DNA from: Affinirhizobium straminoryzae
GTDB taxonomy: Bacteria; Pseudomonadota; Alphaproteobacteria; Rhizobiales; Rhizobiaceae
Direction: 5' to 3'
DNA length: 64,000 nucleotides
Assembly (NCBI RefSeq): GCF_007004135.1
Contig: NZ_VJMG01000010.1
Location: 124,001-188,000 of the forward strand
The notes under the pieces were generated by a model, which made no database searches, was not told the DNA's origin, and was given only the letters and a program-made list of their open reading frames with translations. Shown piece after piece: positions 1,113-21,711 of this stretch. A program made the position numbers and the translations under genes. Within the stretch, counting starts at the first letter, position 1; each line of letters starts with the position of its first letter.

Positions 1113-2114
1113 CTAGCCTGGGGGAGGCTGGGCGCCTTTCGGTCGCGCCGCCACCAGACCAGCGACAAGACTGTGATCGATGACCAGTGTGTTGGCGATG
1201 CCGGCCTTCAGCAGCGCCAGCAGCGGCTTCGTCTTGGCCATGCCGGCGGCCACGACGACATTGTCTGCCTTGCGCAGATCCTCGAATTCGATGCCGGTAT
1301 GGCGATCATTCAGGCCGGTCTCGGCGCGTGAACCATCCGCCTTCAGAAAATGTCCGGCCACTTCGCAGACCGCGCCGGCCTCACGCGCATCGTCCAGGTC
1401 TGCCGCGGACATGCCCGAAGCCAGAAAGAAGCTGCCGGTTTCCTCGCAGGCGCCGCAGGAAATCACGTTGAAGTCCGTCGCGGCCATCTCGGAGAGGATG
1501 GGGCGGATTGAGGGGTCTGCCTTCAGCGCGGCACAGGTTTCCGCAAGCCCGAGAACGAAGGGTACAGGCAGCGTTCGGGCACTACCGCCCACGATCTGCG
1601 CCATCTCCAGGCTCAGCGAATAGGCGCTTGTTCCATCATCATTGTGCGAGGCGCCCATCAGCGCCACGATGCGGGAATCAGGCTTCGAGAGCATGCGCAT
1701 GGCCTCGATCGTGCGCCGAACCGTCGTACCACCACCGACACCCACCGAGACGTTGCGCGTGTTGAGGATGCGCCGACTGACATAGTTGGCGGCTGCGATG
1801 CCGACCGCATCCTTGCGCTGCGGATCGAGCAGCGGATCGTCCGGATTGGCGGCATCGGCGGGCGGCGTGAGAATGCAGCGGGCAAGGCCGTAACTGGCGG
1901 CAATCCAGTCGGCCAAGGCAAGCGTCTCGGCCATCTGGTGCTCGAGGCTGATCTTGACGAGACCGCTCTCGCGCGCGCCAGACAGCATGCGGACCACCTT
2001 CGTCCGCGACACCTCGAGGCGACGGGCCACCTCCTCCTGGCCGAGGCCGTGCACGTAGTAGAGCCAGGCCGCCATCACCTGCAGGTCATGATCGTCAGAG
2101 CGTATGCGCGACAT
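1113..2114 (-). CDS. SorC-family sugar-binding transcriptional regulator
   Basis: A 333-residue SorC/CggR-type regulator. An N-terminal helix-turn-helix (AAWLYYVHGLGQEEVARRL then VSRTKVVRMLSGAR, residues about 14-50) is followed by the large sugar-phosphate-binding domain, with the marker patterns VGVGGGTTVRR and ALMGASHND. SorC proteins sense phosphorylated sugars or polyols and usually control the adjacent operon. The gene is divergent from a galactitol-type PTS operon across 196 bp that contains two inverted repeats. It is therefore probably the regulator of that PTS and responds to the phosphorylated product. It is the first of two SorC genes flanking the PTS and acetoin-dehydrogenase-like genes. 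Confidence 0.9.
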   Translation of the reverse strand: MSRIRSDDHDLQVMAAWLYYVHGLGQEEVARRLEVSRTKVVRMLSGARESGLVKISLEHQMAETLALADWIAASYGLARCILTPPADAANPDDPLLDPQRKDAVGIAAANYVSRRILNTRNVSVGVGGGTTVRRTIEAMRMLSKPDSRIVALMGASHNDDGTSAYSLSLEMAQIVGGSARTLPVPFVLGLAETCAALKADPSIRPILSEMAATDFNVISCGACEETGSFFLASGMSAADLDDAREAGAVCEVAGHFLKADGSRAETGLNDRHTGIEFEDLRKADNVVVAAGMAKTKPLLALLKAGIANTLVIDHSLVAGLVAARPKGAQPPPG

Positions 2115-2186
2115 CGCTTTCGTTCCTCATCGATTCACCGGGTTGCAGTATGCCGCAACTTTGCGGAGACACCAGTGTTTTGCACA

Positions 2187-2198
2187 TTTGCGCGCAAA
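2187..2198. promoter_or_regulatory. Perfect 12-bp palindrome, candidate SorC operator
   Basis: TTTGCGCGCAAA is a perfect dyad in the divergent region between the SorC gene and the PTS operon. A further partial copy precedes it (TTTTGCACA) and GCACA follows it. A TTGACA -35-like hexamer starts at 2207, with a weak TATGAT 20 bp further on. The location suits an operator for the divergent regulator, but binding is inferred only. Confidence 0.45.
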
Positions 2199-2254
2199 CC
2201 GCACACTTGACACGACCGATCGACGCGAACAATATGATCGCCGACGAACAAAAG

Positions 2255-2276
2255 TGCATTCAGGGGAGTGAATGCA
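2255..2276. promoter_or_regulatory. Inverted repeat with Shine-Dalgarno-like loop
   Basis: The arms TGCATTCA and TGAATGCA pair perfectly around a GGGGAG loop. The element overlaps an early in-frame ATG (2272) of the PTS IIC gene and lies about 35 bp before the better-supported GTG start. It could be a second SorC operator in DNA, or an RNA hairpin that holds a ribosome site in its loop. Confidence 0.45.
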
Positions 2277-2310
2277 TGGTTTGCCGTTCATTCACGTAAG
2301 GGAGGATAAC

Positions 2311-3735
2311 GTGGACGCACTTTTAAGCGGCCTGAAGGCCGTCATCGACGATCTGGGAGCCACCGTGCTCCTGCCCATCATGATTTTCATCATCGGCGTG
2401 GTTCTGGGTGCAAAGCCCGGCAAGGCGTTTCGCGCCGGTGTCACCATCGGCGTTGCCTTCATCGGCATCAATCTGGTCATCGGGCTGATGTGGACGAACC
2501 TCAGCGACGTGGCGCAGGCGATTGCAACCAATACCGGCGTCAAGCGCGATGTCGTGGATGTCGGCTGGCCGTCGTCGGCGGCCATCGCCTTCGGCTCGCA
2601 GGTCGGCCTCTGGGTCATCCCGATCGGCATTGCCGTCAATGTCGTCCTGCTTCTGGCAGGCTGGACGCGCACGCTGAACGTCGATGTCTGGAATTTCTGG
2701 CACTTCGCCTTCGTCGGCTCGCTCGTCACCGCCGCAACCGGTTCCCTGCCCTACGGGCTGGCCGCCGCCGCCCTCATGGCCGCACTCTCGCTGTTCTTTG
2801 CCGACTGGAGCGCAAAGCCGGTGCAGGCCTTCTACGGGCTGCCGGGCGTTTCGGTACCGCATCTGCTGTCGGCACAGATCCTGCCCATCGCGATCCTGAC
2901 CAATTGGTTGATCGAGCGCATTCCTGGCCTTCGCGACATCGATCTGTCCACCGATCACATCCAGAAGCGGCTGGGTGTTGCCGGGGAACCGGTCATTCTG
3001 GGCCTCATCATCGGCCTTGTTCTCGGTCTCGTCGGCTTCTGGAACCCGGCAGACATTCCCGGCATGACGGCCAAGGTGCTGAAGGCGGGCATCAATCTGG
3101 CAGCGGTGATGCTGCTTCTGCCCCGCATGGTCAAAATCCTGATGGAAGGCCTGATCCCCGTCTCCGAGGCAGCGCGCGAGTTCGTGCAGAAGCGGGCCGG
3201 CGACCGGCAAATCAATATCGGGCTTGATTCGGCAATCCTGATCGGCCATCCGGCGGCCATCTCGTCAGCCCTGCTGCTCGTTCCGATCGCGATCATTCTC
3301 TCGATCATCCTGCCCGGCAACCGCGTCATCCTGTTTGCCGATCTGGCAGTCATTCCGTTCGTGGTGGCCCTGGCTGCGCCCATCGTGCGGGGCAATGTGC
3401 TGCGCATGGTGATCATCGGCACGATCACGCTGACCATCGGCTTCTACATCGCCGGTGCGCTCGCGCCGCTCTTCACCTCGGCCGCCGGCAGTGCCGGTTT
3501 CAAGATGCCGGCCAATGCCAGCCAGATCACTGCCATCGGCGATGGCTTCGTCTGGATCGGCTTCGTCGTGGTGAAGCTGTTCAGCGGCCTCGGCTGGCTG
3601 GGCGCCCTCATCGTCGCCGCACTGATCGCAATCTGCATGTGGCTGCTGAAGGTACGCGCCGCAGCGATGGAGGCGCTCGCCTCGGCCAGCCCGGAGAAAG
3701 CCACTCAATCCAACGGCCGCAGGGTATCGGCATGA
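2311..3735 (+). CDS. gatC: PTS galactitol-type transporter, IIC component
   Basis: A 474-residue polytopic membrane protein of the galactitol (Gat) PTS family, the sugar-translocating subunit. Characteristic features shared with E. coli GatC are the early VLLPIMIFIIGVVLG segment, HVVDVGWP-like RDVVDVGWPSS, NVDVWNFWH and IGLDSAILIGHPA. About eleven hydrophobic segments are visible. I chose the GTG at 2311 because GGAGG lies 5 bases upstream and the protein then begins at the point where GatC proteins begin; the ATG at 2272 would add 13 unsupported residues. It is the first gene of a IIC-IIA-IIB-(HPr-EI) operon. GatC-family porters carry hexitols and other polyols, so substrate identity is open. 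Confidence 0.9.
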   Translation: MDALLSGLKAVIDDLGATVLLPIMIFIIGVVLGAKPGKAFRAGVTIGVAFIGINLVIGLMWTNLSDVAQAIATNTGVKRDVVDVGWPSSAAIAFGSQVGLWVIPIGIAVNVVLLLAGWTRTLNVDVWNFWHFAFVGSLVTAATGSLPYGLAAAALMAALSLFFADWSAKPVQAFYGLPGVSVPHLLSAQILPIAILTNWLIERIPGLRDIDLSTDHIQKRLGVAGEPVILGLIIGLVLGLVGFWNPADIPGMTAKVLKAGINLAAVMLLLPRMVKILMEGLIPVSEAAREFVQKRAGDRQINIGLDSAILIGHPAAISSALLLVPIAIILSIILPGNRVILFADLAVIPFVVALAAPIVRGNVLRMVIIGTITLTIGFYIAGALAPLFTSAAGSAGFKMPANASQITAIGDGFVWIGFVVVKLFSGLGWLGALIVAALIAICMWLLKVRAAAMEALASASPEKATQSNGRRVSA

Positions 3736-4220
3736 CAGACAGCATGAACACGACGAGTTTCCTCTCCAGGGAGGACATCTTTACCGGGCTCACGGCCCGC
3801 AATGCAAACGAGGTGATCGGCCAGCTGGCCGATCATCTTCTCAGCCGCGGCAAGGTGCGCTCGAGCTATCGCGGCGCAGTCGAGGAACGCGAACGGACCA
3901 TGCCGACGGGTCTGCCGCTGGAAGACGGGCTGGCCGTCGCCGTGCCCCATACCGATCCGGAGCATGTGATCGCCTCCGGGGCTGCCGTGGCCACGCTGAA
4001 AGAGCCCGTGACCTTCCGCAGCATGGACGATCCGGATAAGGAACTGCCGGTTCGCCTTGTCTTCATGCTCGCGCTTCACAGCAAGGAAGAACAGCTCGAA
4101 ATGCTGTCTGCCATCGGCGGGCTCATTCAGGACAATAAAACGCTTCAATCTCTGTGCGAAGCGCAAGACAGTGGTCAGATCTACGCTGACATCGATCGAT
4201 ATCTCAAACTGGGAGGTTGA
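3732..4220 (+). CDS. gatA: PTS galactitol-type IIA component
   Basis: A 162-residue cytoplasmic phosphotransferase of the PTS EIIA type-2 (fructose/mannitol/Gat) superfamily. It receives phosphate from HPr and passes it to the IIB protein. The phosphorylatable histidine is His73 in the VAVPHTDPEHV motif. An upstream GLPLEDGLA segment is typical for GatA. The start codon overlaps the IIC stop (ATGA), implying translational coupling. The IIB gene follows after 7 bp. Confidence 0.92.
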   Translation: MTDSMNTTSFLSREDIFTGLTARNANEVIGQLADHLLSRGKVRSSYRGAVEERERTMPTGLPLEDGLAVAVPHTDPEHVIASGAAVATLKEPVTFRSMDDPDKELPVRLVFMLALHSKEEQLEMLSAIGGLIQDNKTLQSLCEAQDSGQIYADIDRYLKLGG

Positions 4221-4227
4221 GACCAAA

Positions 4228-4512
4228 ATGACCAAGAAGACAGTCCTCGTCGCCTGCGGCACCGCCGTTGCCACATCCACCGTCGTTGCCACCGCCATCG
4301 TCGAGGCCATGGGGGATCGCGGCATCGACGTCGAGACCCGCCAGTGCAAGGCGACCGAGGTGCCGAGCATGCTCGATGGCGTGGACCTCATCGTCTCGAC
4401 AACGCCGCTGCCGCCGAATCTTCCGAAGCCGGCCATCGTCACGCTCGCTTTCCTGACCGGCATCGGCCGCGATGCCGAAATCAACAGGATCGCCGATATC
4501 CTGCGTGCCTGA
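4228..4512 (+). CDS. gatB: PTS galactitol-type IIB component
   Basis: A 94-residue PTS IIB of the lactose/cellobiose-like fold, with the phosphocysteine at Cys10 in the VLVACGTAVATS loop. It transfers phosphate from the IIA histidine to the incoming polyol bound by IIC. Length and the P-loop-like active-site turn agree with GatB. It sits between the IIA gene and the HPr-EI gene in one compact operon. Confidence 0.92.
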   Translation: MTKKTVLVACGTAVATSTVVATAIVEAMGDRGIDVETRQCKATEVPSMLDGVDLIVSTTPLPPNLPKPAIVTLAFLTGIGRDAEINRIADILRA

Positions 4513-4527
4513 GACAGAGGTGTATCG

Positions 4528-6492
4528 ATGGAAATCCAGCGCGCCGTCCGCGTTGCGGTTCCGGGCGGCATCCATGCCAGACCCGCGGCCGAGATCGTCA
4601 GGCTTTCAAAGGGATATAACAGCGAGCTTTTTCTGGAACACCAGGGCAAGTCGGCCACGACGCGCTCTTCGTTCAAGCTCATCCTGCTCAGCCTCAAGGA
4701 AGGAGCGGACGTGACCATCCGCGCGATCGGCGAGGATGCCGATCGCGCCGTGGAAGACATTGCCGGCTATCTGGAGGCGCGGCAGGGCGACCATGCGCAA
4801 GGCGCGGCGGCATCCCCCGAGGCTAAACCCGACCCCACAGGGTCTGGCGATGGCACGGCCCCGGCCGGGGCGCTCAGTGGCAATGCACTGAAGGGCGTCG
4901 CCGGCGGCTCAGGCGCGGCCATCGGCCCCGCCTTTGCCTTCCGCCAGCCGGTTCTGGAACCGTTTGCCGCTCTCGTTGCAGACGTGGATGCGGACATCCG
5001 CGCGGCACGGGAGGCCATGCAGCATGTGGGTCTTGCGCTGCGCCGCCAGGCCGCCGCGGCCAGCCGCGGCACGGCCGACGTGCTGAACGCCATTGCCGAA
5101 CTGTCGGACGATGCCGAATGGAGCGCCCGCGTCGAGGCATTGATCCGGGGCGGGCGAAGCGCCGGCGCTGCGGTTCTTGCCGTCGGAGCGGAGCTTGCGG
5201 ACGAACTCTCCGCGCTCGAAGACAGTTATGCCCGCGCCCGTTCGGAAGACATTGCCAGCCTCACGCGGCTGACGGCCCTGCACCTGCAGGGCAAGCATGC
5301 CTTGAGCCTTGCCGACGTGCCCGCAGGCAGCGTGCTGGTCGCCGATGAAATCAGCGCCGCCGAAGCGGGCGGTGCTGATCTGTCGCGGCTTTCCGGCATC
5401 GTGACCCGCCAGGGCTCTGCCTCCAGCCATGCCGCCATCCTCGCGAGGGCCGCGGGCGTTCCTGCCGTCTTCGGCGTGCAGGATCCGGACAGACGCCTGG
5501 ATCGCGCCCGCGAGATCGCGCTCGATGGCGATGGTGGACTAGTCTTTCCCGATCCGGATGCACGCGCACGCGACGATATTGTTCGCAGATGCGAAATGGC
5601 GAAGGCCGAAGCGCAGGCTCTGCGGACATGGATTGATGTGGCGCCAACGACGACCGATGGCGTTGCCATCACCATTGCCGCCAATCTCGGTTCGGTGGAC
5701 GAAATTGCCCAGGCGCAGGCGGCGGGAGCCATGGGCGTCGGCCTGTTCCGCACCGAGTTCCTGTTCATGAACAGGAATGATCTGCCAACGGAAGACGAAC
5801 AACTGGACGTCTACAAAAGCCTTCTGCTCGCCTTTCCCGACCATCCTGTCATCATCCGCACGCTGGATATCGGCGCCGACAAGCCGGTGCGCAGCCTTGC
5901 CCTGTCCCGCGAGGACAATCCCTTCCTCGGGGTGCGCGGCATTCGCCTGTGTCTTGCGCGCCCGGACCTCTTCAAGCCGCAACTGCGCGCCCTGCTGAGA
6001 GCTGCCCCCTTCGGCAGGCTGCATGTGATGCTGCCGATGGTGGCGGACACCGGCGAGATCGACGCAACCCGGGCTCTGATCGACCAGTGCCGCAGCGAGC
6101 TGATCCAGGAAGGCAAGACGGCGGCGGACTTCGTGCTCGGGATCATGGTGGAGACGCCGGCCGCAGTCTTTGCGGCGGAAACGCTTGCCCGCAAGGTGCG
6201 GTTCTTCTCGATCGGAACGAATGACCTGACGCAATATGTCATGGCGGCAGACCGGCTGAACCCCGGCGTTGCCGAGTTGTGCCGCGTCGATCAGCCGGCC
6301 GTCCTGTCCGCCATCCGCATGGTGTGCACGGCAGCGGAGAAGGCCGGGATCTGGGTCGGGGTCTGCGGGGAAGCCGCAGGCGATGCGGCGGTTGCCCAAC
6401 ACTTCATCGCCGCCGGCGTGACCGAACTCAGCATGGCGCCGGCTTCGATCCTCAAGATGAAAAGCGCCGTCTCCGGCTATATCAGGGGATAA
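4528..6492 (+). CDS. HPr-enzyme I fusion phosphotransferase
   Basis: A 654-residue fusion that starts the PTS phosphate relay from phosphoenolpyruvate. Residues 1-85 are an HPr domain: His16 in GGIHARPA is the phosphorylation site, and Ser47 aligns with the regulatory serine. A Pro/Gly/Ala-rich linker (about 86-118) leads to a full enzyme I. The EI phosphohistidine is His301 (GSASSHAAILAR), and the PEP-binding barrel has SIGTNDLTQYVMAADR and Cys613 in GVCGEAAGD. This gives the operon its own general PTS proteins. Alphaproteobacteria usually carry only the nitrogen-type PTS, so a dedicated EI/HPr makes the transporter self-sufficient. A strong terminator follows. Confidence 0.93.
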   Translation: MEIQRAVRVAVPGGIHARPAAEIVRLSKGYNSELFLEHQGKSATTRSSFKLILLSLKEGADVTIRAIGEDADRAVEDIAGYLEARQGDHAQGAAASPEAKPDPTGSGDGTAPAGALSGNALKGVAGGSGAAIGPAFAFRQPVLEPFAALVADVDADIRAAREAMQHVGLALRRQAAAASRGTADVLNAIAELSDDAEWSARVEALIRGGRSAGAAVLAVGAELADELSALEDSYARARSEDIASLTRLTALHLQGKHALSLADVPAGSVLVADEISAAEAGGADLSRLSGIVTRQGSASSHAAILARAAGVPAVFGVQDPDRRLDRAREIALDGDGGLVFPDPDARARDDIVRRCEMAKAEAQALRTWIDVAPTTTDGVAITIAANLGSVDEIAQAQAAGAMGVGLFRTEFLFMNRNDLPTEDEQLDVYKSLLLAFPDHPVIIRTLDIGADKPVRSLALSREDNPFLGVRGIRLCLARPDLFKPQLRALLRAAPFGRLHVMLPMVADTGEIDATRALIDQCRSELIQEGKTAADFVLGIMVETPAAVFAAETLARKVRFFSIGTNDLTQYVMAADRLNPGVAELCRVDQPAVLSAIRMVCTAAEKAGIWVGVCGEAAGDAAVAQHFIAAGVTELSMAPASILKMKSAVSGYIRG

Positions 6493-6506
6493 ACGACGCA
6501 GGTAAC

Positions 6507-6553
6507 AAGGCCAGCCAGCCGTCGCATCCGCGCGGCTGGCTGGCTTTTCTTTC
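6507..6553 (+). terminator. Rho-independent terminator after PTS operon
   Basis: A perfect 12-bp stem, GCCAGCCAGCCG/CGGCTGGCTGGC, has an 11-base loop. It is flanked by AA on the 5' side and TTTTCTTT on the 3' side, which extend the pairing and give the T-tract. It starts about 15 bp after the HPr-EI stop codon and lies in a convergent region with the second SorC gene. Confidence 0.9.
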
Positions 6554-6598
6554 GCATCCATGCCGTTACTGCCCACACGCTGCTGATCGAAGGGTACC

Positions 6599-7558
6599 TC
6601 AGGCGATCAGTGATCGTGCGGTCTGTTCGTCGGTGATGAAGGTGGTCGGGCAGACGATACGGATGGCGCCGCGCAGCGCAAGAATCTTTTCCTTGCCACC
6701 TGAGATGAGGACCCGTTCCGGGGTCCGCCGCAGACGGGAAAGATTTGCCGAGACGACGCGCGAATTCACATCATGATCAACGATTTCGCCCTTTTCGTTG
6801 ATGAAATTGTAGAGCACGTCCCCGACAGCACCGGCCTCCATCAGGGAGCGCCGGTCGGATTCGGAAATGTAGCCCGCCCGATAGCTTGTCGTCAGCGTCG
6901 AGATGCCACCAACCGACAACAGGGCGACATCCAGCTTGTCCGCCATCTCGAAAATCGCAGCGAGGCCGCAGCGTTCGAGAAGGGCATGCTTCGTCTCGGG
7001 ACTGTCCACCACCGCCGGCGCCGGTATCAGAAAGCCTTCGCCCTGGAACAACTCGGCGAACTGCCAGGCGAATTCGGCAGGGTTGAATCGGCGGGCGGCG
7101 GCAATCCCGCCCAGCAGAGAGACGACGCGGAAATCATCGAGCGCGCTGCCAAGGATGAAGGGCAGCGTGTTGTAAAGTGTCTGGCCCCAGCCGACGCCGA
7201 CGGACATGCCCGATTTCATCAGGCTGGAAATGAAGCCGCCGGCGGCAGCGGCAATCACCTTGACCGGATCGGCCTGCGGATCGTCAAAGGGCGCTACGAT
7301 CACGCGGTTGATCTCAAAGGCGCATTCGAGCTTGCGCTCGAGTTCGGTCAGTTCGGCCAGCGGCGAAGAGATGGTGACACGCACCTCATTTCGCCGCCGC
7401 GCCTCGGCGAGTGCCCGCACCACCATGATGCGATTGATGCCGAGAATGGCGGCAACCTCGTTCTGGGTCTTGCCCTCCACATGGTAGAGCCAGACGGCCT
7501 TGGCCCGCAGGCGGTCGGCTTCGCTTTGCACCCCAGCCGGCCTCGTCGCCTCCTGCAT
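6599..7558 (-). CDS. SorC-family regulator at end of acetoin-dehydrogenase-like operon
   Basis: A 319-residue SorC-family regulator. It has a helix-turn-helix near residues 20-60 (VWLYHVEGKTQNEVAAILG, then INRIMVVRALAEAR) and the sugar-binding domain markers VGVGWGQTLYNTLP and VVSLLGGIA. The ATG at 7558 is chosen because AGGAG lies 8 bases upstream; a GTG at 7567 would be too close to it. The gene starts 24 bp after the E2 gene and is probably its co-transcribed last gene, which would give autoregulation. It converges on the PTS operon. Its effector is probably an intermediate of the pathway, such as a phosphorylated polyol or deoxyketose. Confidence 0.9.
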   Translation of the reverse strand: MQEATRPAGVQSEADRLRAKAVWLYHVEGKTQNEVAAILGINRIMVVRALAEARRRNEVRVTISSPLAELTELERKLECAFEINRVIVAPFDDPQADPVKVIAAAAGGFISSLMKSGMSVGVGWGQTLYNTLPFILGSALDDFRVVSLLGGIAAARRFNPAEFAWQFAELFQGEGFLIPAPAVVDSPETKHALLERCGLAAIFEMADKLDVALLSVGGISTLTTSYRAGYISESDRRSLMEAGAVGDVLYNFINEKGEIVDHDVNSRVVSANLSRLRRTPERVLISGGKEKILALRGAIRIVCPTTFITDEQTARSLIA

Positions 7559-7582
7559 CCGCAACACTCCTGGTGATCTGTC

Positions 7583-8932
7583 TCAACCCGGAGCTTCGAC
7601 AGCTGCAAATTGTCTTTCGACGATCCTTGCCACGCGTTCCGGGCATTCGAAGTGAGGGATATGCCCGATGCCGTGCAGGAAATGAAGCGCAAAATCAGCC
7701 TCGATGCTCAAGGCATGACGGAAAGGCGTCACCTGGTCGCGACGACCCCAGACGATGCTGGCCGGCATGGAAAGCCGTGCAAAGGCAGGTCTGAGATCAA
7801 ATGCCTGCACGCCATCCGGGAAAAGCACCTCGGCCATCTCCATCTGGCAGCTTCGCAGGCCCGGATCGGCACGGCCCCGCATGGCGGCCTTTGCATAGTC
7901 ATCGCCGATCAGCTCGGCATTGCCGGCAAGCTGGCGCAGCCAGGGAGACAGGCTTTCGACGCGGGTGGCACGCGCAATTCCCGCGAGCATTTCCCCGTTG
8001 ATATCGGGTCCGAGCCCGGCAGGTGCCATGGCAGTGAGGCTCAGGACACGCGATGAACGGATATCGGCAATCGCCGCAGCAACGGCGCCGCCAAGCGAGT
8101 GCCCCAGAAGATGCACCCCGTCGAGACCGCGCGTTGCCTCATCAAAGGCCTCAAGCACCATGCGCGCCAGATGCGCGAAGTCCCGGATCTTCCGCTTTGG
8201 CGACCGGCCATGTCCGGGAAGATCGATGCGGATCAGGGCCCGGCCGGGCAGAAGCGCCTTTTCCAGTGGCAGCCAGCCGGTGCTGTCGGCCGCAAAACCA
8301 TGGATCAGGACCAGCGGCGCATCGCGGCCCGGGCGTCGGGTCACCGCCAGCGGACCGCTATCCGCCACCCAGCCGGAAACCGGTCGCGGTGGGGCCACGT
8401 CGCGCTCGCGAGCCAGCAGATCGTCCACATCCTGCTTCTGGATACGGCCGCGCGGACCGCTGCCGGCCACATCCGAAAGATCAAGGCCAGCCGTCCGCGC
8501 CGCGTGGCGGGCAGCAGGCGTTGCCCGCAGGAGAGACCCTCCGGGCATGGGGCTGGCGTGACCCGCCATGCCTTGCGGAGGCACAGCATAGGGGGCCTGT
8601 TCGGTTCCTCCGAGTGCCGGGGCATCGGGAACGGCAGCCTCTGCCGGCACGTCGCCCGGTGCAGGAACAGGCGGGAGCGTATCGACGGTCTCACCTTCCG
8701 CATAAAGCCAGGCAATGACGGAGCCGACCGGCACCTTCGTGCCTGGCTCGGCCAGCACATGCTGAAGGCGTCCGGTCGCCGGAGCCTCGACTTCCATCGC
8801 GGCCTTGTCGGTCTCGATGTCGAAAAGGGCTGCTCCCTTCTGGACCATGTCACCCGGCTTCACATGCCAGGTGGCCAGCGTGCCATGGGTCATGTCCATG
8901 TCGACCTTGGGCAGGATCACTTCCACCGGCAT
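7583..8932 (-). CDS. acoC: AcoC-type E2: lipoyl domain, E3-binding domain and alpha/beta hydrolase
   Basis: A 449-residue E2-like subunit. The lipoyl domain carries the lipoylated Lys43 (DIETDKAAMEVEAP). A Pro/Ala linker leads to a peripheral E3-binding domain (about 135-175: ATPAARHAARTAG to GRIQKQDVDDLL). The C-terminal part is an alpha/beta hydrolase, not the usual acyltransferase, with a plausible triad Ser279 (GHSLGG), Asp399 and His424 (GIGHIPH). This replacement is known for AcoC of acetoin dehydrogenase complexes. It would take the acyl group from E1 and pass it to CoA. The start ATG is one base past the E1beta stop (TGAcATG). No E3 gene is in the operon, so dihydrolipoamide dehydrogenase must come from elsewhere. 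Confidence 0.9.
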   Translation of the reverse strand: MPVEVILPKVDMDMTHGTLATWHVKPGDMVQKGAALFDIETDKAAMEVEAPATGRLQHVLAEPGTKVPVGSVIAWLYAEGETVDTLPPVPAPGDVPAEAAVPDAPALGGTEQAPYAVPPQGMAGHASPMPGGSLLRATPAARHAARTAGLDLSDVAGSGPRGRIQKQDVDDLLARERDVAPPRPVSGWVADSGPLAVTRRPGRDAPLVLIHGFAADSTGWLPLEKALLPGRALIRIDLPGHGRSPKRKIRDFAHLARMVLEAFDEATRGLDGVHLLGHSLGGAVAAAIADIRSSRVLSLTAMAPAGLGPDINGEMLAGIARATRVESLSPWLRQLAGNAELIGDDYAKAAMRGRADPGLRSCQMEMAEVLFPDGVQAFDLRPAFARLSMPASIVWGRRDQVTPFRHALSIEADFALHFLHGIGHIPHFECPERVARIVERQFAAVEAPG

Positions 8933-8933
8933 G

Positions 8934-9947: not shown

Positions 9948-9948
9948 G

Positions 9949-10947: not shown

Positions 10948-12269
10948 TGCAGGCTCTCCAGCATCGCATCCTGCCGTGCGCGCAGGATCGCAATCGGACT
11001 GTCGGCGGGAACGGCCGTATTGAGGGAGGTCAGCAGTTCGCCCTTGCGCACCGGCGCCGTCGTGCGCGCACCGGCCAGCAGACCGCAGGGCACGGCATTG
11101 GCCAGGCGGGCATCTGTCGCAGTCATGATCCAGGCGCGGTAGCAATACTCGCCGATCTGGTCGAGCGTTTCACCCGGCAGGAGATCGCGCTTTGCGACCG
11201 CGCAGACTTCCGCGACCGGGCGCGAGAGCGGCACCATATCAGCCTTGCCGTAGAGCACGGCACGCGCGCAGGTGAGCGGCACTTCGAGCGATGTGAGATG
11301 ATAGGGCCGGAAGAAGGTGAAGTAGGGCCCCTGCCCCATTTTCAGATCTTCCATGCGCTCGCGAATACGGGGATGTTCCATTTCCGCAACGACGAAAACA
11401 CCGGGCGCGACACCCTTGCCGATCGAGAAATCGACGCAGCCTTCGCTGGAGGACAGGACACCGCCGGCCGACTGCGGCACCAGAACCTTGTTCAGTTCTT
11501 CACGCGAGCATGCGGGACCATGCATGCCGGGCTTGTCCGGCAGAAGACCGGTGGCATTGGCAATCGCCGCCATTTCCACCATCGTCTTCGATCCGTCGAC
11601 GAACTCCACCAGCATGCGCGGGTTCATGTTGCGACGGCGCGCCTCGTCGGCATAGAGGTCTGGCGTGGCATCAACGTTCAGTGGATTGTTCTTGCCCTTG
11701 CCGGCAGAAATGATGCGGTGGCCCATGGCACTGACGAATTCGATCAGCTCCATGCAGCTCGACGGCTCGTCGCCTGCGCCGAGCGAATAGACGACACCGA
11801 GCTTTTCGGCTTCTGCGCGCAGATAGGCGCCGATCGTCACGTCGGCCTCGACATTCATCATCACCAGATGCTTGCCCGCCTGCATGGCGGCAAGACCCAC
11901 CTTGGCGCCGACGGCGGGGATGCCGGTGGCATCGACAACCACGTCGATCAAGCCGGTATTCAGCAGCACATTCACGTCTTCGGTCACCGCGACCAGCCCC
12001 GCCTCCATGGCGGCATTGGCAGCGTCAACGCTCGTCACCTTCCGCGAACGATCATCCGTTCCATAGGCGATCTGGACCGACCGTTCCGCAGCACCCGGGC
12101 GCACCTCGCTGATCGCGCCGACCGCAATGCCCTGCATATGCGCGACGCGGCTGACAATATCGGTTCCCATTTCCCCGGCCCCGACAAGGCCGATCCGGAC
12201 GGGTTTTCCAGTATGGGCCCGCGCCGACAGGTCGCGGGCAAGCCCGGTTAGGGCAACATTCGTTGGCAT
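10944..12269 (-). CDS. DXR-II (DRL)-like NAD(P)H-dependent oxidoreductase with SAF domain
   Basis: A 441-residue protein with an N-terminal Rossmann fold (IGLVGAGEMGTDI, residues about 26-38) related to homoserine dehydrogenase and a C-terminal SAF-like domain (PVAEVCAVAKRDLLPGE onwards). From memory it matches the Brucella DRL protein along its length (GKHLVMMNVEADVTIG, LGAGDEPSSCMELIEFV, GKGKNNPLN, GPYFTFFRPYHLTSLEVPLT). Brucella DRL converts 1-deoxy-D-xylulose 5-phosphate to 2-C-methyl-D-erythritol 4-phosphate, standing in for DXR. Start at 12269 follows GGAGG by about 7 bases. It is the first gene of the acoABC-like operon, which points to a catabolic role, possibly in the reverse direction (MEP to DXP). 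The exact substrate is not proven. Confidence 0.8.
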   Translation of the reverse strand: MPTNVALTGLARDLSARAHTGKPVRIGLVGAGEMGTDIVSRVAHMQGIAVGAISEVRPGAAERSVQIAYGTDDRSRKVTSVDAANAAMEAGLVAVTEDVNVLLNTGLIDVVVDATGIPAVGAKVGLAAMQAGKHLVMMNVEADVTIGAYLRAEAEKLGVVYSLGAGDEPSSCMELIEFVSAMGHRIISAGKGKNNPLNVDATPDLYADEARRRNMNPRMLVEFVDGSKTMVEMAAIANATGLLPDKPGMHGPACSREELNKVLVPQSAGGVLSSSEGCVDFSIGKGVAPGVFVVAEMEHPRIRERMEDLKMGQGPYFTFFRPYHLTSLEVPLTCARAVLYGKADMVPLSRPVAEVCAVAKRDLLPGETLDQIGEYCYRAWIMTATDARLANAVPCGLLAGARTTAPVRKGELLTSLNTAVPADSPIAILRARQDAMLESLQ

Positions 12270-12305
12270 GGCATATCCTCCTCGGTGCGCCATTGATTGC
12301 GTACA

Positions 12306-12421
12306 TTTGTTATTTATGTCAACACAAAGTTCTCAATCTTTGATGCTGCAGCGCAGCACTTTTTCTCGATTGACACGCAAACATAATGAACACATGTTCT
12401 GAAAGTGAAATTTATGTTCAT
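12306..12421. promoter_or_regulatory. AT-rich divergent control region with several dyads
   Basis: This region separates the leftward DRL-aco operon from the rightward sugar ABC operon. It is much more AT-rich than its surroundings. Visible elements are TTTGT/ACAAA arms (12306-12328), GAACA-CA-TGTTC (12388-12399), and ATGAACA (12386-12392) paired with TGTTCAT (12415-12421). TTGACA hexamers occur on the minus strand (12322-12317) and the plus strand (12370-12375), without clear -10 partners. They are candidate sites for the SorC regulators and would coordinate both operons. Confidence 0.4.
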
Positions 12422-12488
12422 ATCAATCGCTGACCAGAGGAGTGGCGCAGCGATGTTCCTGCACAGGAAATCACACCGGGAGGACGAC

Positions 12489-14042
12489 ATGGGTAAGGAA
12501 TTCGCAGCGGTCTCGCGCCGCGGCTTTTTGCGTGCAACGGCGGCGGCAGGCGTCACCGCCGGCTTTGGGGGGCTCGCCATGCCAGCGCTGGCAAAGACAG
12601 CGCTGCCGGACGTCAAGTCCATTCTGGACGGCATCTCCGTCGAAGGCTATGTGCGGGCCGATTACCGCAAGCTCTACAACATGACCAATGATCCGCTGTG
12701 GGATCCGGCCAAGGACTGGATCCGCGCCGTGGACTGGGAGAAGGTTCGTTCCGAACAGGCGGGCAAGACGGTCCGCTTTGCCATCGGCGCGGCCGACCAG
12801 GAATCCGCGGCCGAAGGGCTGAAGCCGTTCGAGCAGCTCTCCGGCATCAAGGTGGAACTCGTTCCGATCCCGGATGACAGCTTCTACGACAAGGCGGTGG
12901 CCGAATTCATTTCCGGCAATGCCTCCTTCGATGCGCTGCAGTTCTTCTCGCCCTGGCTTGGCGATTTCGCCGGCCCGGGCTTCCTGGCGGAACTCGATGA
13001 CTACGCCGCCAAGTGGAAGCTGCCGCTGGATGATTTCTACGACACCTATCGCCTGAACTACGGTTATTTCGGCGGCAAGCTGGTCGGCATCCCCTTCGAC
13101 TGTGACGTGCAGATGGTGCATCTGCGCAAATCATCGATGGAGAAGATCCTGGGCGGCAAGATCGACCTCGCCAACTCCGTGCCGACCTACGACGAACTGA
13201 TCCGCATCACGGGCGAAGCCAACAAGCTCGGCGGCGGCGTTTCGGGCGTCGGCCTCATGCTGGCACGTGGTTTCTGGGCCACCTATACCTGGGAGCATAT
13301 CGCCGCGCAGGCGGGCCTGAAACTGTTCGATGAGCAGTGGAACCCCACGCTGAACAGCGATGCAGGCATGAAGGCCATGGACATCATCATGGCGCTCCAG
13401 AAGAATGCCATCGAAGGCGTGGCCGGTGCCGGCTGGGGCGAAAACCGCGCCGCCTGGCTCGGCGGACAGGTGGCCGCCAACATCAGCTGGCAGGACAGCG
13501 GCACGCAGGCCATGCGTCCGGATCAGTCCAAGATCGTCGATGACTTCGTCACCATCTACGAGCCGCGCATCAAGGGCGGCGTGTTTGCGCCGCCGAACAT
13601 TGCCGGTTCCACCTCCTGCGTGGCGGCGACCTCGCAGAATCCGGAGGGCGCCTTCCTGATGCTGGCCTTCCTGACGACGGCCTCGATCATGGCCATGAAC
13701 GAAGCCAATGCCAACGGCGTCGCCCCGGGCTACCGCTCCGTTCTCGCCAATCCGCGCCTGCGCGCCGTCAGCCAGCCGGCCAAGGTGTGGGCCGACAGCC
13801 TCGAACACGCCTGGTGCGCACCGCGCCTGCCCGGCATGTTCGAGATGGAGCAGGCACTCGGCAACGAGATCAACCGTGCCGCCACGGGTCAGATCTCCGC
13901 CAAGCAGGCGCTGGAAAACGGCGAGGCTGCCTGGAAGCGCATCATGGAGAAGAACGGCTTCAAGGGCGGCAAGGGACCGGTCGCCTATGCGGATGTCGCT
14001 CCGGGCATGTATGTGGGCGCCGGCAAGGCTCTGCCGTTCTAA
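12489..14042 (+). CDS. Sugar/polyol ABC transporter, Tat-exported substrate-binding protein
   Basis: A 517-residue family-1 type extracellular binding protein. The signal peptide carries a twin-arginine motif (SRRGFLRATAAAG), so it is exported folded by the Tat route, ending near AMPALA. The mature part has the typical open binding-protein pattern (KTVRFAIGAADQESAAEGLKPFE; SPWLGDFAGPGFLAELDDY). It is longer than the usual 400-440 residues because of an extra N-terminal stretch before the first beta strand. Start at 12489 is set by GGGAGG 5 bases upstream. It leads a five-gene operon with two permeases, an ATPase and a PfkB kinase. Substrate is unknown; the divergent DRL-aco operon suggests a polyol related to that pathway. 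Confidence 0.88.
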   Translation: MGKEFAAVSRRGFLRATAAAGVTAGFGGLAMPALAKTALPDVKSILDGISVEGYVRADYRKLYNMTNDPLWDPAKDWIRAVDWEKVRSEQAGKTVRFAIGAADQESAAEGLKPFEQLSGIKVELVPIPDDSFYDKAVAEFISGNASFDALQFFSPWLGDFAGPGFLAELDDYAAKWKLPLDDFYDTYRLNYGYFGGKLVGIPFDCDVQMVHLRKSSMEKILGGKIDLANSVPTYDELIRITGEANKLGGGVSGVGLMLARGFWATYTWEHIAAQAGLKLFDEQWNPTLNSDAGMKAMDIIMALQKNAIEGVAGAGWGENRAAWLGGQVAANISWQDSGTQAMRPDQSKIVDDFVTIYEPRIKGGVFAPPNIAGSTSCVAATSQNPEGAFLMLAFLTTASIMAMNEANANGVAPGYRSVLANPRLRAVSQPAKVWADSLEHAWCAPRLPGMFEMEQALGNEINRAATGQISAKQALENGEAAWKRIMEKNGFKGGKGPVAYADVAPGMYVGAGKALPF

Positions 14043-14046
14043 GCCG

Positions 14047-14988
14047 ATGGCAAGCTCCGCACACAGCATCAAGGCGGTGGCACCAGCCACCGCCCGTCCG
14101 TCCACCGGGACGTTGCGCCGCCGCTCGCCGCGGATGCGCAGCGCCTTCCCCTACCTCCTGGTCGCGCCAGCCGTTCTCTACCTGCTGGCCATCACCCTCT
14201 ATCCCGGTATCTTTGCAATCTACCAGAGCCTGTTCGTGGTCCGCTTCGTGAAATGGACCTGGGCCGGCCTCGATAATTACGAGCGCATCCTGCAGGACGC
14301 CGAGTTCTGGGCGGCGCTGTGGAATACGATCATTGTCGGCGGCCTGTCGCTCGGCCTGCAGACGGTGATTGCGCTGGCGCTCGCCTATTTTGCCTATCGC
14401 GATCCCCTCATCCGTGGCTGGCGGATCATCTATCTGATGCCGATGCTGTTCATGCCCTCGGCGGTTGCCTTCATGTGGAAGCTTGCCTTCAACGACGGGC
14501 GCGTGATCTCCGACCTCCTGATGACGATCGGGCTCACCCACGGCAATGTCGACTGGCTGGCCTCGGTCTGGCTGGCGCGGCTGACGCTGATCGTCGCCGA
14601 TGTCTGGCAGTGGACGCCGTTCCTGTTCATCATCTTCGTCGCGGCCCTGCAGGGCCAGGACCAGGAAATCGAAGAGGCTGCGCGGCTGGATGGTGCCTCC
14701 TGGCCGGCAATCTTCTGGAACATCTCGCTGCCGATGATGCGGCCGGTCATCGTGGTGGCCGTCACGCTGCGCGGCATCGATATCACCACCATGTTCACCA
14801 ATGTCTACATCATGACGCAGGGCTCGCCCGGCGGCGCGACGGAGACCATGAGCTTCTTCATCTATCGCCAGGGCTTCCGCATGTTCAATTTCGGCTATGC
14901 CTCCGCCGCCTCCGTGCTGATGCTGGCGATGACGATCCTGATTGCCCAGACACTCGTGAAGCGGGCCTTCCGCTCGGGGAGGAGCTGA
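14047..14988 (+). CDS. Sugar ABC transporter permease, MalF-like
   Basis: A 313-residue inner-membrane permease with an extended charged N-terminus and six hydrophobic segments. It has the EAA loop that contacts the ATPase (EEAARLDGASWPAIFWNISLPMMRP). The gene begins 4 bp after the binding-protein stop. Together with the next gene it forms the heterodimeric channel of a CUT1-type sugar importer. Confidence 0.9.
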   Translation: MASSAHSIKAVAPATARPSTGTLRRRSPRMRSAFPYLLVAPAVLYLLAITLYPGIFAIYQSLFVVRFVKWTWAGLDNYERILQDAEFWAALWNTIIVGGLSLGLQTVIALALAYFAYRDPLIRGWRIIYLMPMLFMPSAVAFMWKLAFNDGRVISDLLMTIGLTHGNVDWLASVWLARLTLIVADVWQWTPFLFIIFVAALQGQDQEIEEAARLDGASWPAIFWNISLPMMRPVIVVAVTLRGIDITTMFTNVYIMTQGSPGGATETMSFFIYRQGFRMFNFGYASAASVLMLAMTILIAQTLVKRAFRSGRS

Positions 14989-14989
14989 G

Positions 14990-15832
14990 ATGGCCTCCGT
15001 TCGTCGTGACCGAAGCGAACGCCTGTGGCTTCGCTATCTGATCCTCGGCTCCTGGGCGATCGTGTGTCTGGCGCCCATGCTGTGGTTTCTCACCATCGGC
15101 TTTCGTCCGCGCACGGAAATCATCGTGCCACACCCGATCTACTGGCCAAGCTGGAGTCTGGACGCCTGGCGTCTGCTGGTGAGCGACTGGCCGATTGCCA
15201 GCTACCTGCGCAATTCCGTCGTGGCCGTCGCCGGCTCGGTCGTCATCGATCTCGTGCTCGCGATCCCCGCCGCCTATGCGCTGTCGCGCTACGAGTTCAG
15301 GGGCCGCGAGGATATCGGGTTCTACATCCTCTCGACCCGTATGATGGCACCCGCCATCGTCGCCGTGCCGATCTTCTTCCTGTTCAAGAACATTGGTCTT
15401 CTCGACACGGTCTGGGCGCTGATGCTGGTCTATGCCGCCATCAATCTCAGCCTGGTGACCTGGATCATCCGCAGCTACATGCTGGATATTCCGAAGGAGC
15501 TGGAAGACGCAGCCCGCACCGACGGCGCCGGCGACCTGACGATCCTTCGGGAAATCATCATCCCCGCCTGCCTTCCCGGCATCATCACCGCAGCCGTCAT
15601 CGCAGCGATCTTCGCGATCAACGAATTCCTGTTCACGCTGCTGATCGCCTCCACCTCGAAGGCCTACACCATGTCCGTTGCGCTGGCGAATTTCACCGGC
15701 GGTTCGGACGGCATCATCTACAACGCAATTGCGCTCGTCTCCTTCCTCGCCTTCGTGCCGATCCTGATCGTCGTGATCCTGATCCAGAAGCACCTGTCGC
15801 GCGGGTTGACGATGGGTGCGGTGAAAGGTTGA
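14990..15832 (+). CDS. Sugar ABC transporter permease, MalG-like
   Basis: A 280-residue permease, the second half of the channel. The EAA loop reads EDAARTDGAGDLTILREIIIPACLPG, and the LSTRMMAPAIVAVPIF segment is typical of MalG/UgpE-type partners. It starts at the stop of the preceding permease (TGAgATG) and ends 3 bp before the ATPase gene. Confidence 0.9.
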   Translation: MASVRRDRSERLWLRYLILGSWAIVCLAPMLWFLTIGFRPRTEIIVPHPIYWPSWSLDAWRLLVSDWPIASYLRNSVVAVAGSVVIDLVLAIPAAYALSRYEFRGREDIGFYILSTRMMAPAIVAVPIFFLFKNIGLLDTVWALMLVYAAINLSLVTWIIRSYMLDIPKELEDAARTDGAGDLTILREIIIPACLPGIITAAVIAAIFAINEFLFTLLIASTSKAYTMSVALANFTGGSDGIIYNAIALVSFLAFVPILIVVILIQKHLSRGLTMGAVKG

Positions 15833-15835
15833 ACC

Positions 15836-16882
15836 ATGGCTTCCATTCAGCTCAACAATATCGTCAAGCGCTTCGGCTCCTTTGTCGGCGTGGAGAACAT
15901 GTCGCTCGACATCGCCGACGAGGAGTTCCTCGTGCTGCTCGGCCCCTCCGGCTGCGGCAAGACCACGACGATGCGCATGATCGCCGGTCTGGAACATCCG
16001 ACCGGTGGCCAGATCGTCATCGGTGGCGAAGTGGTCAATGAGATCGACGCCCGCGACCGTGACGTGGCCATGGTCTTCCAAGGCTACGCGCTCTATCCGA
16101 ACATGTCGATCTACGACAACATCCGCTTCCCCTTGCGCATGCGCAAGGTGCCGGCGGACCAGCACGACCGGCTGATCCGCCGGGCGGCCGAGATGGTGGA
16201 GCTTGGCGCCTTTCTGGATCGCAAACCAGGCGCGCTTTCGGGCGGCCAGCGGCAGCGTGCAGCGCTGGCGCGCGCGGTGGTGCGCGAGCCGCAGGTCTTC
16301 CTGATGGACGAGCCACTGTCCAACCTCGATGCGAAGCTGCGCGCCAGCATGCGGGTGCAGATCAAGCACATGCAGCGGCAGCTGAAGGTCACCACCGTCT
16401 ACGTCACCCACGATCAGATCGAGGCCATGACGCTGGCGGACCGGATCGTCATCATGAATCGCGGCATCATCCAGCAGGTCGGCACACCGGACGAGATCTA
16501 TTCCGACCCGGCCAATACCTTCGTCGCCGGCTTCATCGGATCACCTCCCATGAACCTGCTGGCGGGCGAGGCGCGCGACGGCATCTTCCGGAGCGAAGGC
16601 ATCGAGGTTCCCTGCCCCCGCACCGTCACCGGCAGCGTCACGCTCGGCATCCGGCCAGAGGACTGCACGGTCGGCGGCGGACATCTGCAAGGCATGGTCT
16701 ATGGCGTCGAGCCGACCGGGGACATCACCTATCTGACCGTCCAGACCGGCAAGCGCGCCGTGGAGATCAAGGCGGCCCGCGATTTCCGAGCGCCGATCGA
16801 CACGCCCATTTCGATTGGCTTCGATCTGTCGCGCCTCTATTTCTTCTCCGAGAACGGCGAGCGCATCCGGAGGCCTGCATGA
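15836..16882 (+). CDS. Sugar ABC transporter ATPase, MalK/UgpC-like
   Basis: A 348-residue ATPase of the CUT1 importer. Walker A is GPSGCGKTT, the signature is LSGGQRQRAALARAVV and Walker B is VFLMDEPLSNLD, followed by the switch histidine in VTHDQIEAM. The C-terminal third is the TOBE/regulatory domain (ILGIRPEDC-type VTLGIRPEDC). The following kinase gene overlaps it by four bases. Confidence 0.93.
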   Translation: MASIQLNNIVKRFGSFVGVENMSLDIADEEFLVLLGPSGCGKTTTMRMIAGLEHPTGGQIVIGGEVVNEIDARDRDVAMVFQGYALYPNMSIYDNIRFPLRMRKVPADQHDRLIRRAAEMVELGAFLDRKPGALSGGQRQRAALARAVVREPQVFLMDEPLSNLDAKLRASMRVQIKHMQRQLKVTTVYVTHDQIEAMTLADRIVIMNRGIIQQVGTPDEIYSDPANTFVAGFIGSPPMNLLAGEARDGIFRSEGIEVPCPRTVTGSVTLGIRPEDCTVGGGHLQGMVYGVEPTGDITYLTVQTGKRAVEIKAARDFRAPIDTPISIGFDLSRLYFFSENGERIRRPA

Positions 16883-17868
16883 CCACCCGCTTCGATTATT
16901 CCTGCATGGGCTTTTACACCTTCGATGCGCTCTGCCGGCCCGTCACACAGATCGCACCGGGCGGCGGCACCTACTTCGTCGAGGATTTCACGATGGCGGT
17001 CTCGGGTGCCGCCGGCTCCGCCTCGATCGTCGCGGCCAAGCACGGGCTGCGCGTTCAGGCGGCCGGTGGCGTCGGGGAAGACGACATGGGCGACTGGGTG
17101 CTGATGAAGCTGAAATCCTTCGGCATCGATACCGGGCTGATGGCGCGCTGCCCCACGTTTTCCACGTCTTCCTCCATCGTCACCACACGACCGGACGGAG
17201 CACGCCCAGCGCTCCACAAGCGCGGCGCGACTGACGGCTTCTTCATCGATGACGATCAGCTCGAACGCCTGCTCGATACCCGCATCCTGCATGTCGGCGG
17301 CGTCGGCCTGATGAACCGGATGGACGATACGGGCCGCACGCGCGAGGTGATGGCGGAGGCAAAGCGGCGGGGCGTCATCACCACGCTCGACGTCTTTGCC
17401 TCGACGGCCGACGATTTGCCCAAGGTCGCACAGCTGCTGCCCTATACCGATTACTTCCTGCCCTCGGAGGAGGAAGCTCAGGCTCTTTCGGGCCTCAGCG
17501 ACAACCGGGATCTCGCCCGGTTCCTGCTGGATCAGGGGGCAGGCTGCATCATCCTGACGCTCGGGGCAAACGGCGCCTATTACTGCAGCCGCGACGGACA
17601 GGAATTTCATACGCCGGCCTTCCAGGTGGATGTAAAATGCACCTGCGGCTGCGGCGACTGCTTCAATGGCGGCTTTGCGACCGGCTTGATCAAGGGCCTG
17701 CCGGCGGAACAGTGCGTGGAACTGGCGCAGGCCTCGTCGGCACAGAACGCCACCGGGCTCGGCAGTCAGGCAGGGGTCAGGGATTACGCACACACCCTGG
17801 AGTTCATCCGTTCGACACGACGGCATCAGGGTCTGGAGGCTTTCGTGCCGGCTCTCACCACGGTATAA
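16879..17868 (+). CDS. PfkB-family carbohydrate kinase with altered anion-hole motif
   Basis: A 329-residue ribokinase/PfkB-fold kinase that should phosphorylate the imported sugar or polyol with ATP. The N-terminal glycine region (AVSGAAGSASIVAAKHG, AAGGVGEDDMGD) is recognisable. The C-terminal PfkB signature, usually DTTGAGD, reads CTCGCGD (residues 254-260). The catalytic Asp260 is kept, but three positions of the motif are cysteine. Translational coupling to the ATPase (ATGA overlap) shows it belongs to the transporter operon. In the pathway proposed for this cluster it would be the second way, beside the PTS, of making the phosphorylated polyol. Confidence 0.88.
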   Translation: MTTRFDYSCMGFYTFDALCRPVTQIAPGGGTYFVEDFTMAVSGAAGSASIVAAKHGLRVQAAGGVGEDDMGDWVLMKLKSFGIDTGLMARCPTFSTSSSIVTTRPDGARPALHKRGATDGFFIDDDQLERLLDTRILHVGGVGLMNRMDDTGRTREVMAEAKRRGVITTLDVFASTADDLPKVAQLLPYTDYFLPSEEEAQALSGLSDNRDLARFLLDQGAGCIILTLGANGAYYCSRDGQEFHTPAFQVDVKCTCGCGDCFNGGFATGLIKGLPAEQCVELAQASSAQNATGLGSQAGVRDYAHTLEFIRSTRRHQGLEAFVPALTTV

Positions 17869-17896
17869 GAAGCCTCTCGGGAAGGGAGTGAATGCT

Positions 17897-20647: not shown

Positions 20648-20759
20648 TCCATCCAACCCCTGCAAGTCTTCGTTCCGGGCCGCATTGATGGGGAGCGATG
20701 CCCGACAGCGCAATCTTATGCAGATTGCGGGTGGTGCTATTCAGTTTGAGGAAGCAGGC

Positions 20760-21665: not shown

Positions 21666-21711
21666 GAGGCAGAGGCCGCTTGACGGCATGGCATGAAGGT
21701 CCGCGCGCTCC

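Follow-up and report, generated by a model that had tools for sequence, protein, structure and literature searches.

The gene cluster described here occupies positions 1113 to 19172 of a 64,000-nucleotide stretch of Affinirhizobium straminoryzae DNA (contig NZ_VJMG01000010.1, positions 124,001 to 188,000; this whole stretch is called the window below), contains a gene for a DXR-II/DRL reductoisomerase, and resembles several described systems in its parts. The acetoin dehydrogenase system AcoABC breaks, in CH3-CO-CHOH- compounds, the same bond whose cleavage is proposed here, and the cluster likewise combines a thiamine pyrophosphate (TPP)-dependent E1 with a lipoyl E2 of the AcoC type, but its E1 falls in a clade of its own and its substrate would be a sugar phosphate. 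Galactitol and glucitol operons import and phosphorylate a polyol through a phosphotransferase system (PTS) of the GAT or GUT family, and a GAT-family PTS is present in the cluster as well, although a reductoisomerase takes the place of the simple polyol-phosphate dehydrogenase and the PTS scores lie under the galactitol cut-offs. The Lsr pathway for autoinducer-2 converts a phosphorylated C5 compound to acetyl-coenzyme A (acetyl-CoA) and triose phosphate (PMC8016206) and has a related type of regulator, but it employs the thiolase LsrF and the isomerase LsrG, where the cluster has DRL, a TPP/lipoyl E1/E2 and polyol entry. Finally, the DXR-II enzyme of Brucella (DRL, PDB 3upl), which is described as biosynthetic, converting 1-deoxy-D-xylulose 5-phosphate (DXP) to 2-C-methyl-D-erythritol 4-phosphate (MEP) (PMC3847144), belongs to the same family as the window's DRL, matches it along almost its entire length (656.9 bits), and agrees with it at ten checked active-site or diagnostic residues, whereas the window's gene stands in a catabolic-looking operon of a genome that also has a canonical dxr.

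A candidate pathway for methylerythritol catabolism

We propose, with a probability of roughly 0.6, that the cluster encodes enzymes for the catabolism of 2-C-methyl-D-erythritol or a closely related 2-methyltetrol, where we infer both the substrate and the direction from the predicted gene functions. The cluster itself is real, conserved and coherent. The polyol would enter either through the gat-type PTS, which would phosphorylate it, or through an ATP-binding cassette (ABC) importer followed by a PfkB kinase, giving MEP, and DRL would then oxidize and rearrange MEP to DXP. E1 would cleave DXP, holding the CH3-CO- end as hydroxyethyl-TPP and releasing glyceraldehyde 3-phosphate, and E2 would pass the acetyl group via lipoate to CoA, with E3 supplied from elsewhere in the genome; the net conversion would be that of a C5 polyol to acetyl-CoA and glyceraldehyde 3-phosphate, and the two SorC regulators would sense a phosphorylated intermediate. 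The combination of phosphorylating uptake with a lipoyl, acyl-CoA-forming complex suggests that the polyol is handled in phosphorylated form and that the product of DRL is cleaved to acetyl-CoA, which would make that product DXP. In genomes without a canonical dxr, the same enzyme family would be biosynthetic, mostly as a copy unlinked to E1/E2. The methylerythritol reading had been put forward in an original prediction made before the present comparisons; the separate dxr, the co-occurrence in other genomes and the chemical precedents speak for it, whereas its view of E1 as an acetoin dehydrogenase did not hold. No description of a methylerythritol or 1-deoxyxylulose catabolic pathway of this kind was found among the open-licence papers listed.

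Gene content was checked by Pfam and NCBIfam profile scans, which found all of the genes that had been named between 1113 and 17868, arranged in three tightly packed operons. The first consists of gatC-gatA-gatB-HPr/EI, with sorC1 divergent from these PTS genes, and the second, on the minus strand, of DRL-E1alpha-E1beta-E2-sorC2, with a 4-base overlap between DRL and E1alpha. The third is divergent from the DRL operon and encodes a substrate-binding protein, two permeases, an ATPase, the PfkB kinase, and two further proteins, hypA and hypB, which extend it beyond the originally considered span to 19172 and have homologues recurring near DRL clusters. The genome is 5.5 Mb in size. Among the records found, the closest named relative is Allorhizobium pseudoryzae (DRL 96.1%), whose plasmid NZ_CP049244 (locus L116, strain DSM 19479) carries the same cluster, from sorC1 through hypB.

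Assignment of the reductoisomerase

The DRL gene lies at 10944 to 12269 on the minus strand, in an open reading frame that extends to 12293; alignment with 3upl indicates that 12269 is probably the true start. Its DRL_cat domain scored 226.2 bits against a Pfam cut-off of 27, which DLO-type proteins pass as well, the residue check being the stricter test. A survey of the family sets functional DXR-II apart from the families DLO1 and DLO2, with four tested DLO proteins failing to complement, and reports that DXR-II enzymes make MEP and complement DXR-deficient Escherichia coli (PMC3847144); the DXR reaction is listed elsewhere as reversible (PMC13001223). At ten DXR-II sites taken from the survey, including G121, K191, K193, T229, H250 and R320, the window's DRL was identical to 3upl at 10 of 10. 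Nine of them were invariant in all 96 E1-linked loci, a label given here to loci with E1 no more than 9 kb from DRL, and V351 was kept in 88 of the 96, as in the window. Since unlinked copies retain most of these sites as well, the sites argue for DXR-II chemistry and not for catabolism; alanine occupies position 121 in 14 of 54 loci bearing no neighbour label.

The check for a canonical dxr suggested with the original prediction located one in the window's own genome, which has dxs as well. Isoprenoid synthesis therefore does not require DRL here, nor must DRL be a biosynthetic enzyme, and a role as the sole DXR of the genome is ruled out. In an order-wide sample of 297 genomes, 55 had a DXR-II-type match (69 matches, each scoring 212 bits or more across 489-495 bases, a definition that misses fragments). 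Canonical dxr was present in 10 of these 55, the window's own among them, and gave no match in the other 45. Linked copies, here those with E1alpha and E1beta within 4 kb and on the strand of DRL, occurred in 6 of the 10 genomes with dxr, and were the sole DXR-II-type match in five of them (the window's genome, G000, being counted from the window); they occurred in 15 of the 45 genomes without dxr, 41 of which had at least one unlinked copy. This distribution is compatible with some copies being catabolic and others biosynthetic. In one genus, tentatively Mesorhizobium, each of the seven sampled genomes has two DXR-II-type copies, one of them linked and the other unlinked. M. loti and O. anthropi are each described as having two functional DXR-II paralogues (PMC3847144), and the pairing in the sampled genus makes it probable that a linked copy is among the functional ones.

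Linkage of DRL with E1/E2 in other genomes

By the 4-kb, same-strand measure, E1alpha-E1beta accompanied DRL in 69 of 80 close relatives (the best 80 of 566) and in 21 of the 69 DXR-II-type matches of the order-wide sample, counts that draw, like the neighbour sets below, on loci that are not independent and on data sets between which genomes may repeat. An E1-like match anywhere in 16.5 kb was found at 1 of 20 DLO-type control loci, which we picked from those listed in the order sample; it was a 58-bit E1beta-like match on the other strand. Among the 11 unlinked relatives, one (L100) is cut by a contig end, and two are second copies beside a linked one, in Phyllobacterium endophyticum and Aminobacter anthyllidis. 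One order-sample locus not among the 21 (L147) has an E1beta about 9 kb off, outside the stretch examined. The cluster is widespread in Alphaproteobacteria and not peculiar to this genome, and the co-occurrence of DRL with E1/E2 and with gat or gut PTS genes, which the original prediction had proposed to look for, was found in other genomes. In Priestia, a single locus contains E1-E2-lpdA, SorC, MFS, SorC, DRL and FGGY kinase genes.

The E1/E2 complex

Both E1 subunits are TPP-dependent dehydrogenase components encoded on the minus strand, E1alpha at 9949 to 10947 (E1_dh 299 bits) and E1beta at 8934 to 9968 (from profile scans and the E1 comparison), followed by an AcoC-type E2 with lipoyl, E3-binding and alpha/beta-hydrolase domains at 7583 to 8932. 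The complex had been described as acetoin-dehydrogenase-like, which proved apt for E2 (NF011457 339.6 bits, cut-off 307) but not for E1. After removal of near copies, the E1alpha-E1beta pairs of DRL loci formed one clade of 54 alphaproteobacterial rows (100/99), and four acetoin-operon references from Paracoccus, Acinetobacter and two Enterococcus species formed a separate one (100/96). The DRL-linked clade was also apart from three PDH-like or other E1s, with weak deep forks (83/24); the window's E1alpha is 38.9% identical to one of these, a pyruvate dehydrogenase (PDH)-like copy in its own genome (L196), and shares 43.0% identity with another copy from that genome (L195), the third being one Burkholderia pdhA. 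The DRL-linked E1 of Priestia and an E1 of Clostridioides difficile were weakly placed sisters. A plain acetoin operon is ruled out by the E1 tree, and no acoR, acoX or 2,3-butanediol dehydrogenase was recognised by Pfam and NCBIfam among the cluster genes scanned, from 1113 to 19172.

E1beta proteins of this clade, defined by at least 70% identity, a threshold that drops three genomes at 56-57% (G146, G173 and G195), were present in 26 of the 297 genomes, and 25 of these 26 also hold DXR-II, the exception being a genome that is 58% complete. In three genomes (G155, G210 and G282) E1beta and DXR-II lie apart. Fisher p-values for co-occurrence across the 297 genomes (7.6e-31 and 4.8e-20) ignore shared ancestry. 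The E2 proteins of DRL loci come in two predicted builds, AcoC-like and PDH-like, both of which are consistent with acyl transfer to CoA. Relevant chemistry has been described for related enzymes: 1-deoxyxylulose is given as a product of purified PDH, and a mutant PDH makes DXP in vivo, according to a paper whose reference 39 concerns the formation of 1-deoxyketoses by pyruvate and acetoin dehydrogenase (PMC3424233).

Genes for cofactor supply were seen near some of these complexes. Directly behind E2, lpdA (dihydrolipoyl dehydrogenase) and lipA (lipoyl synthase) occur in S. meliloti Rm41 (L115, 14791-17236), whose cluster is on pRM41A, and on an Agrobacterium plasmid (L124, 14820-17328), and a thiamine biosynthesis operon lies near the cluster on one Rhizobium plasmid (L123, 16829-21320).

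Uptake modules

The PTS is encoded on the plus strand by genes for a GAT-family IIC (2272 to 3735; EIIC-GAT 292 bits), IIA (3732 to 4220; PTS_EIIA_2 103.7 bits), IIB (4228 to 4512; PTS_IIB 37.4 bits) and a fused HPr-enzyme I with four PTS/PEP-utiliser domains (4528 to 6492), which would provide a dedicated phosphorelay. It had been called a polyol or Gat type; membership of the GAT family stands, but the strict galactitol label does not, as IIC, IIA and IIB scored 450.6, 72.8 and 60.3 bits against NCBIfam galactitol cut-offs of 542.2 (TIGR00827), 139 and 95. These scores rule out a plain galactitol operon. The ABC importer, also on the plus strand, comprises a sugar substrate-binding protein (12480 to 14042; SBP_bac_1 98 bits) and, from profile scans, two permeases (14107 to 14988 and 14990 to 15832) and an ATPase of the UgpC/MalK type (15836 to 16882), and is followed by the PfkB/ribokinase-family sugar kinase (16879 to 17868; PfkB 129.5 bits).

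When the neighbours of the 96 E1-linked loci were scored within 9 kb (a distance at which Priestia is classed as FGGY, its E1/E2 lying just beyond), 26 loci had an ABC importer with PfkB, 24 a gut-type PTS, and 4 both gut and gat genes; the window's combination of gat with ABC/PfkB was found in one (L116). Thus the uptake modules vary while the phosphorylating step appears to stay, each recognised set being one that would yield a phosphorylated substrate. Together, the ABC importer and PfkB kinase probably offer a second way to the intermediate that the PTS would yield. In two genomes lacking dxr, an unlinked DRL is divergent from gatCAB PTS genes (L175 and L185).

Counter-evidence and alternative explanations

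A number of observations weigh against a catabolic pathway for methylerythritol. Sequence cannot distinguish a methyl from a hydroxymethyl substrate, and the DXR equilibrium favours MEP, so that the reverse step would have to be pulled by E1/E2. No E1/E2 lies inside 4 kb of 48 of the 69 sampled DXR-II matches, and four genomes without dxr have linked DXR-II only, so those copies may serve both roles. On a DRL tree (quick method, midpoint root) the E1 link needs 13 gains or losses, where shuffling gave 36.6; linked copies cluster without marking off a single clade, and the tree is silent on the ancestral state. The tree also leaves 3upl unplaced, and the rows closest to 3upl in identity are E1-linked (77.6%, with a split frame, and 75.0%), followed by an unlinked row at 74.8%. 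As many as 41 of the 96 E1-linked loci had none of the tested uptake sets within 9 kb, these 41 including short contigs and ABC loci without a kinase of the query set (e.g. L061 and L094). In Listeria, Ligilactobacillus and Enterococcus raffinosus, DRL occurs with a gut-type PTS and SorC and with no E1/E2 within about 9 kb, and elsewhere it occurs with FGGY kinases and a sugar ABC importer but without E1/E2 (L142, L130, L149 and L146, two of the genomes having dxr), which is perhaps a sister pathway. Likewise, C. difficile has E1/E2 with SorC and a PTS, and no DRL in the stretches seen.

Two of these arrangements deserve description in their own right. The four FGGY loci also encode a dehydrogenase that, judged by eye, resembles glycerol-1-phosphate dehydrogenase. 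The C. difficile genes, on a plasmid record (L200, 7007-16957; L208, 10186-20001), comprise E1/E2/E3, SorC, PTS IIA-IIB-IIC, a class II aldolase and a lipoate ligase, and the E1beta is 58% identical to that of the window; this set is possibly a direct route for a 1-deoxy sugar.

The alternative that survives best, although we regard it as unlikely, is that the substrate is another branched polyol carrying a hydroxymethyl in place of the methyl group, such as apiitol, in which case the product of DRL would be a pentulose 5-phosphate, with E1/E2 either generating glycolyl-CoA or having a different substrate. Residue conservation does not tell CH3 and CH2OH apart, and a pentulose phosphate would suit the Ligilactobacillus arrangement, in which DRL and the gut-type PTS stand beside fructose-6-phosphate aldolase and transketolase. 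Yet for a pentulose phosphate an E1/E2 that forms acyl-CoA would be superfluous, whereas 69 of the 80 relatives keep one beside DRL, the E2 is of the acetoin type, and DXR-II proteins are reported to replace DXR in E. coli (PMC3847144). In the Ligilactobacillus salivarius locus (L117, 8995-16566), these genes accompany a SorC regulator, and the aldolase and transketolase genes hint at a different way in which the DRL product may be used.

Rather unlikely, too, is the import of 1-deoxy-D-xylulose, or of an autoinducer-2-like 1-deoxypentulose, with the ABC importer and PfkB producing DXP for cleavage by E1/E2 and DRL forming a side branch. In its favour, the Lsr pathway also proceeds by phosphorylation of a C5 compound and yields acetyl-CoA and triose phosphate (PMC8016206), its regulator LsrR is related to the cluster's SorC proteins, XylB phosphorylates 1-deoxyxylulose (PMC3424233), and C. 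difficile has E1/E2 with PTS and SorC but no DRL in the stretches seen. However, DRL opens its operon and overlaps E1alpha by 4 bases, scans of the cluster genes recognised no LsrF, LsrG or LsrK, and both SorC proteins fall far short of the LsrR cut-off.

We give still less weight to a biosynthetic or salvage role, in which methylerythritol would feed isoprenoids and E1/E2 would be an unrelated acetoin or pyruvate dehydrogenase, and consider it improbable. It draws on the biosynthetic function of Brucella DRL (PMC3847144) and on the 45 of 55 sampled DXR-II genomes without a canonical dxr match. The window's own genome, however, has both dxs and dxr, the E1 groups neither with the acetoin-operon references nor with its own PDH-like copy, the E1 clade tracks DXR-II, and salvage needs no DRL because import through the PTS gives MEP directly. 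Chance proximity of parts that share no pathway (DRL, a polyol PTS and an acetoin operon) could be argued from the common families to which all of them belong, but has almost no probability left; it is rejected on the 69 of 80 relatives that keep DRL with E1alpha-E1beta, the DLO controls and the co-occurrence across 297 genomes.

Regulators, candidate operators and adjacent genes

Both SorC-family regulator genes are on the minus strand, sorC1 at 1113 to 2114 (Pfam Sugar-bind 147 bits) and sorC2, the last gene of the DRL operon, at 6599 to 7567 (Sugar-bind 179 bits). Neither reaches the cut-off of the LsrR model (486 bits; sorC2 116.4, sorC1 83.5). Among solved structures sorC2 matched DeoR and LsrR best, with a sorbitol operon regulator and Listeria Lmo0547 (PDB 4r9n) lower. 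Judging by its gene number, Lmo0547 is presumably a neighbour of the Listeria DRL, and the ligand in 4r9n, if any, could name the inducer.

The motif GAACAWWTGTTC, allowing at most two mismatches, occurred in 17 of 26 DRL upstream regions (0.68 expected from a mononucleotide shuffle), the same 26 regions, from the window and 25 loci of our choosing, from which it was derived. In the window 6 sites compare with an expectation of 3.89, and the two promoters of the cluster contain three of the six: tentative operator-like sites on the plus strand at 2246 to 2257 in the PTS promoter (two mismatches), and at 12301 to 12312 and 12388 to 12399 (one mismatch) in the divergent promoter of the DRL and ABC operons. 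These data do no more than suggest GAACAWWTGTTC as a candidate SorC operator.

The genes hypA (17888 to 18607) and hypB (18600 to 19172) end the ABC/kinase operon on the plus strand, and neither product had a credible family match in Pfam and NCBIfam searches; homologues of hypA also lie near DRL loci. The hypB family was found in 26 of the 297 genomes, as was the E1 clade, and both were found in 24. It occurs near ABC-type and PTS-type clusters alike, and an alignment of the window with 32 of 35 loci has invariant Trp, Pro, Glu and Cys residues. The protein is probably a dedicated component of the pathway.

Just past the cluster, Pfam matches identify an MmgE/PrpD-family protein (19298-20713, minus strand) and a LysR-type regulator (20817-21662, plus strand), and what appears by eye to be a second LysR regulator follows (21712-22629, plus strand). 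The genes at 19298-22629 probably form a separate unit.

Biological significance

In the 2013 DXR-II survey the question is raised of how an MEP-forming enzyme that is redundant next to DXR-I arose and persisted; two Firmicutes with DXR-II but no further MEP or mevalonate genes are also reported there (PMC3847144). A catabolic role, if true, would answer why DXR-II was kept beside DXR-I. The complex would then represent a TPP/lipoyl dehydrogenase of a new kind, one that cleaves ketose phosphates, and DXR-II, under discussion for antibacterial screening, would have to be seen as a catabolic enzyme that was recruited. 2-Methyltetrols form in air from isoprene (PMC4740749), and the pathway, if true, would be a biological sink for them. 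Tentatively, and at somewhat less than even odds, we suggest that DXR-II may be at root a catabolic enzyme for 2-methyltetrols from plants and isoprene aerosol, acting with a 'DXP dehydrogenase' and hypB, and that its use in biosynthesis by Brucella, Bartonella and other bacteria without dxr may be a later recruitment in the reverse direction. Such an origin, if true, would explain the occurrence of DXR-II both beside DXR-I and in bacteria without the MEP pathway.

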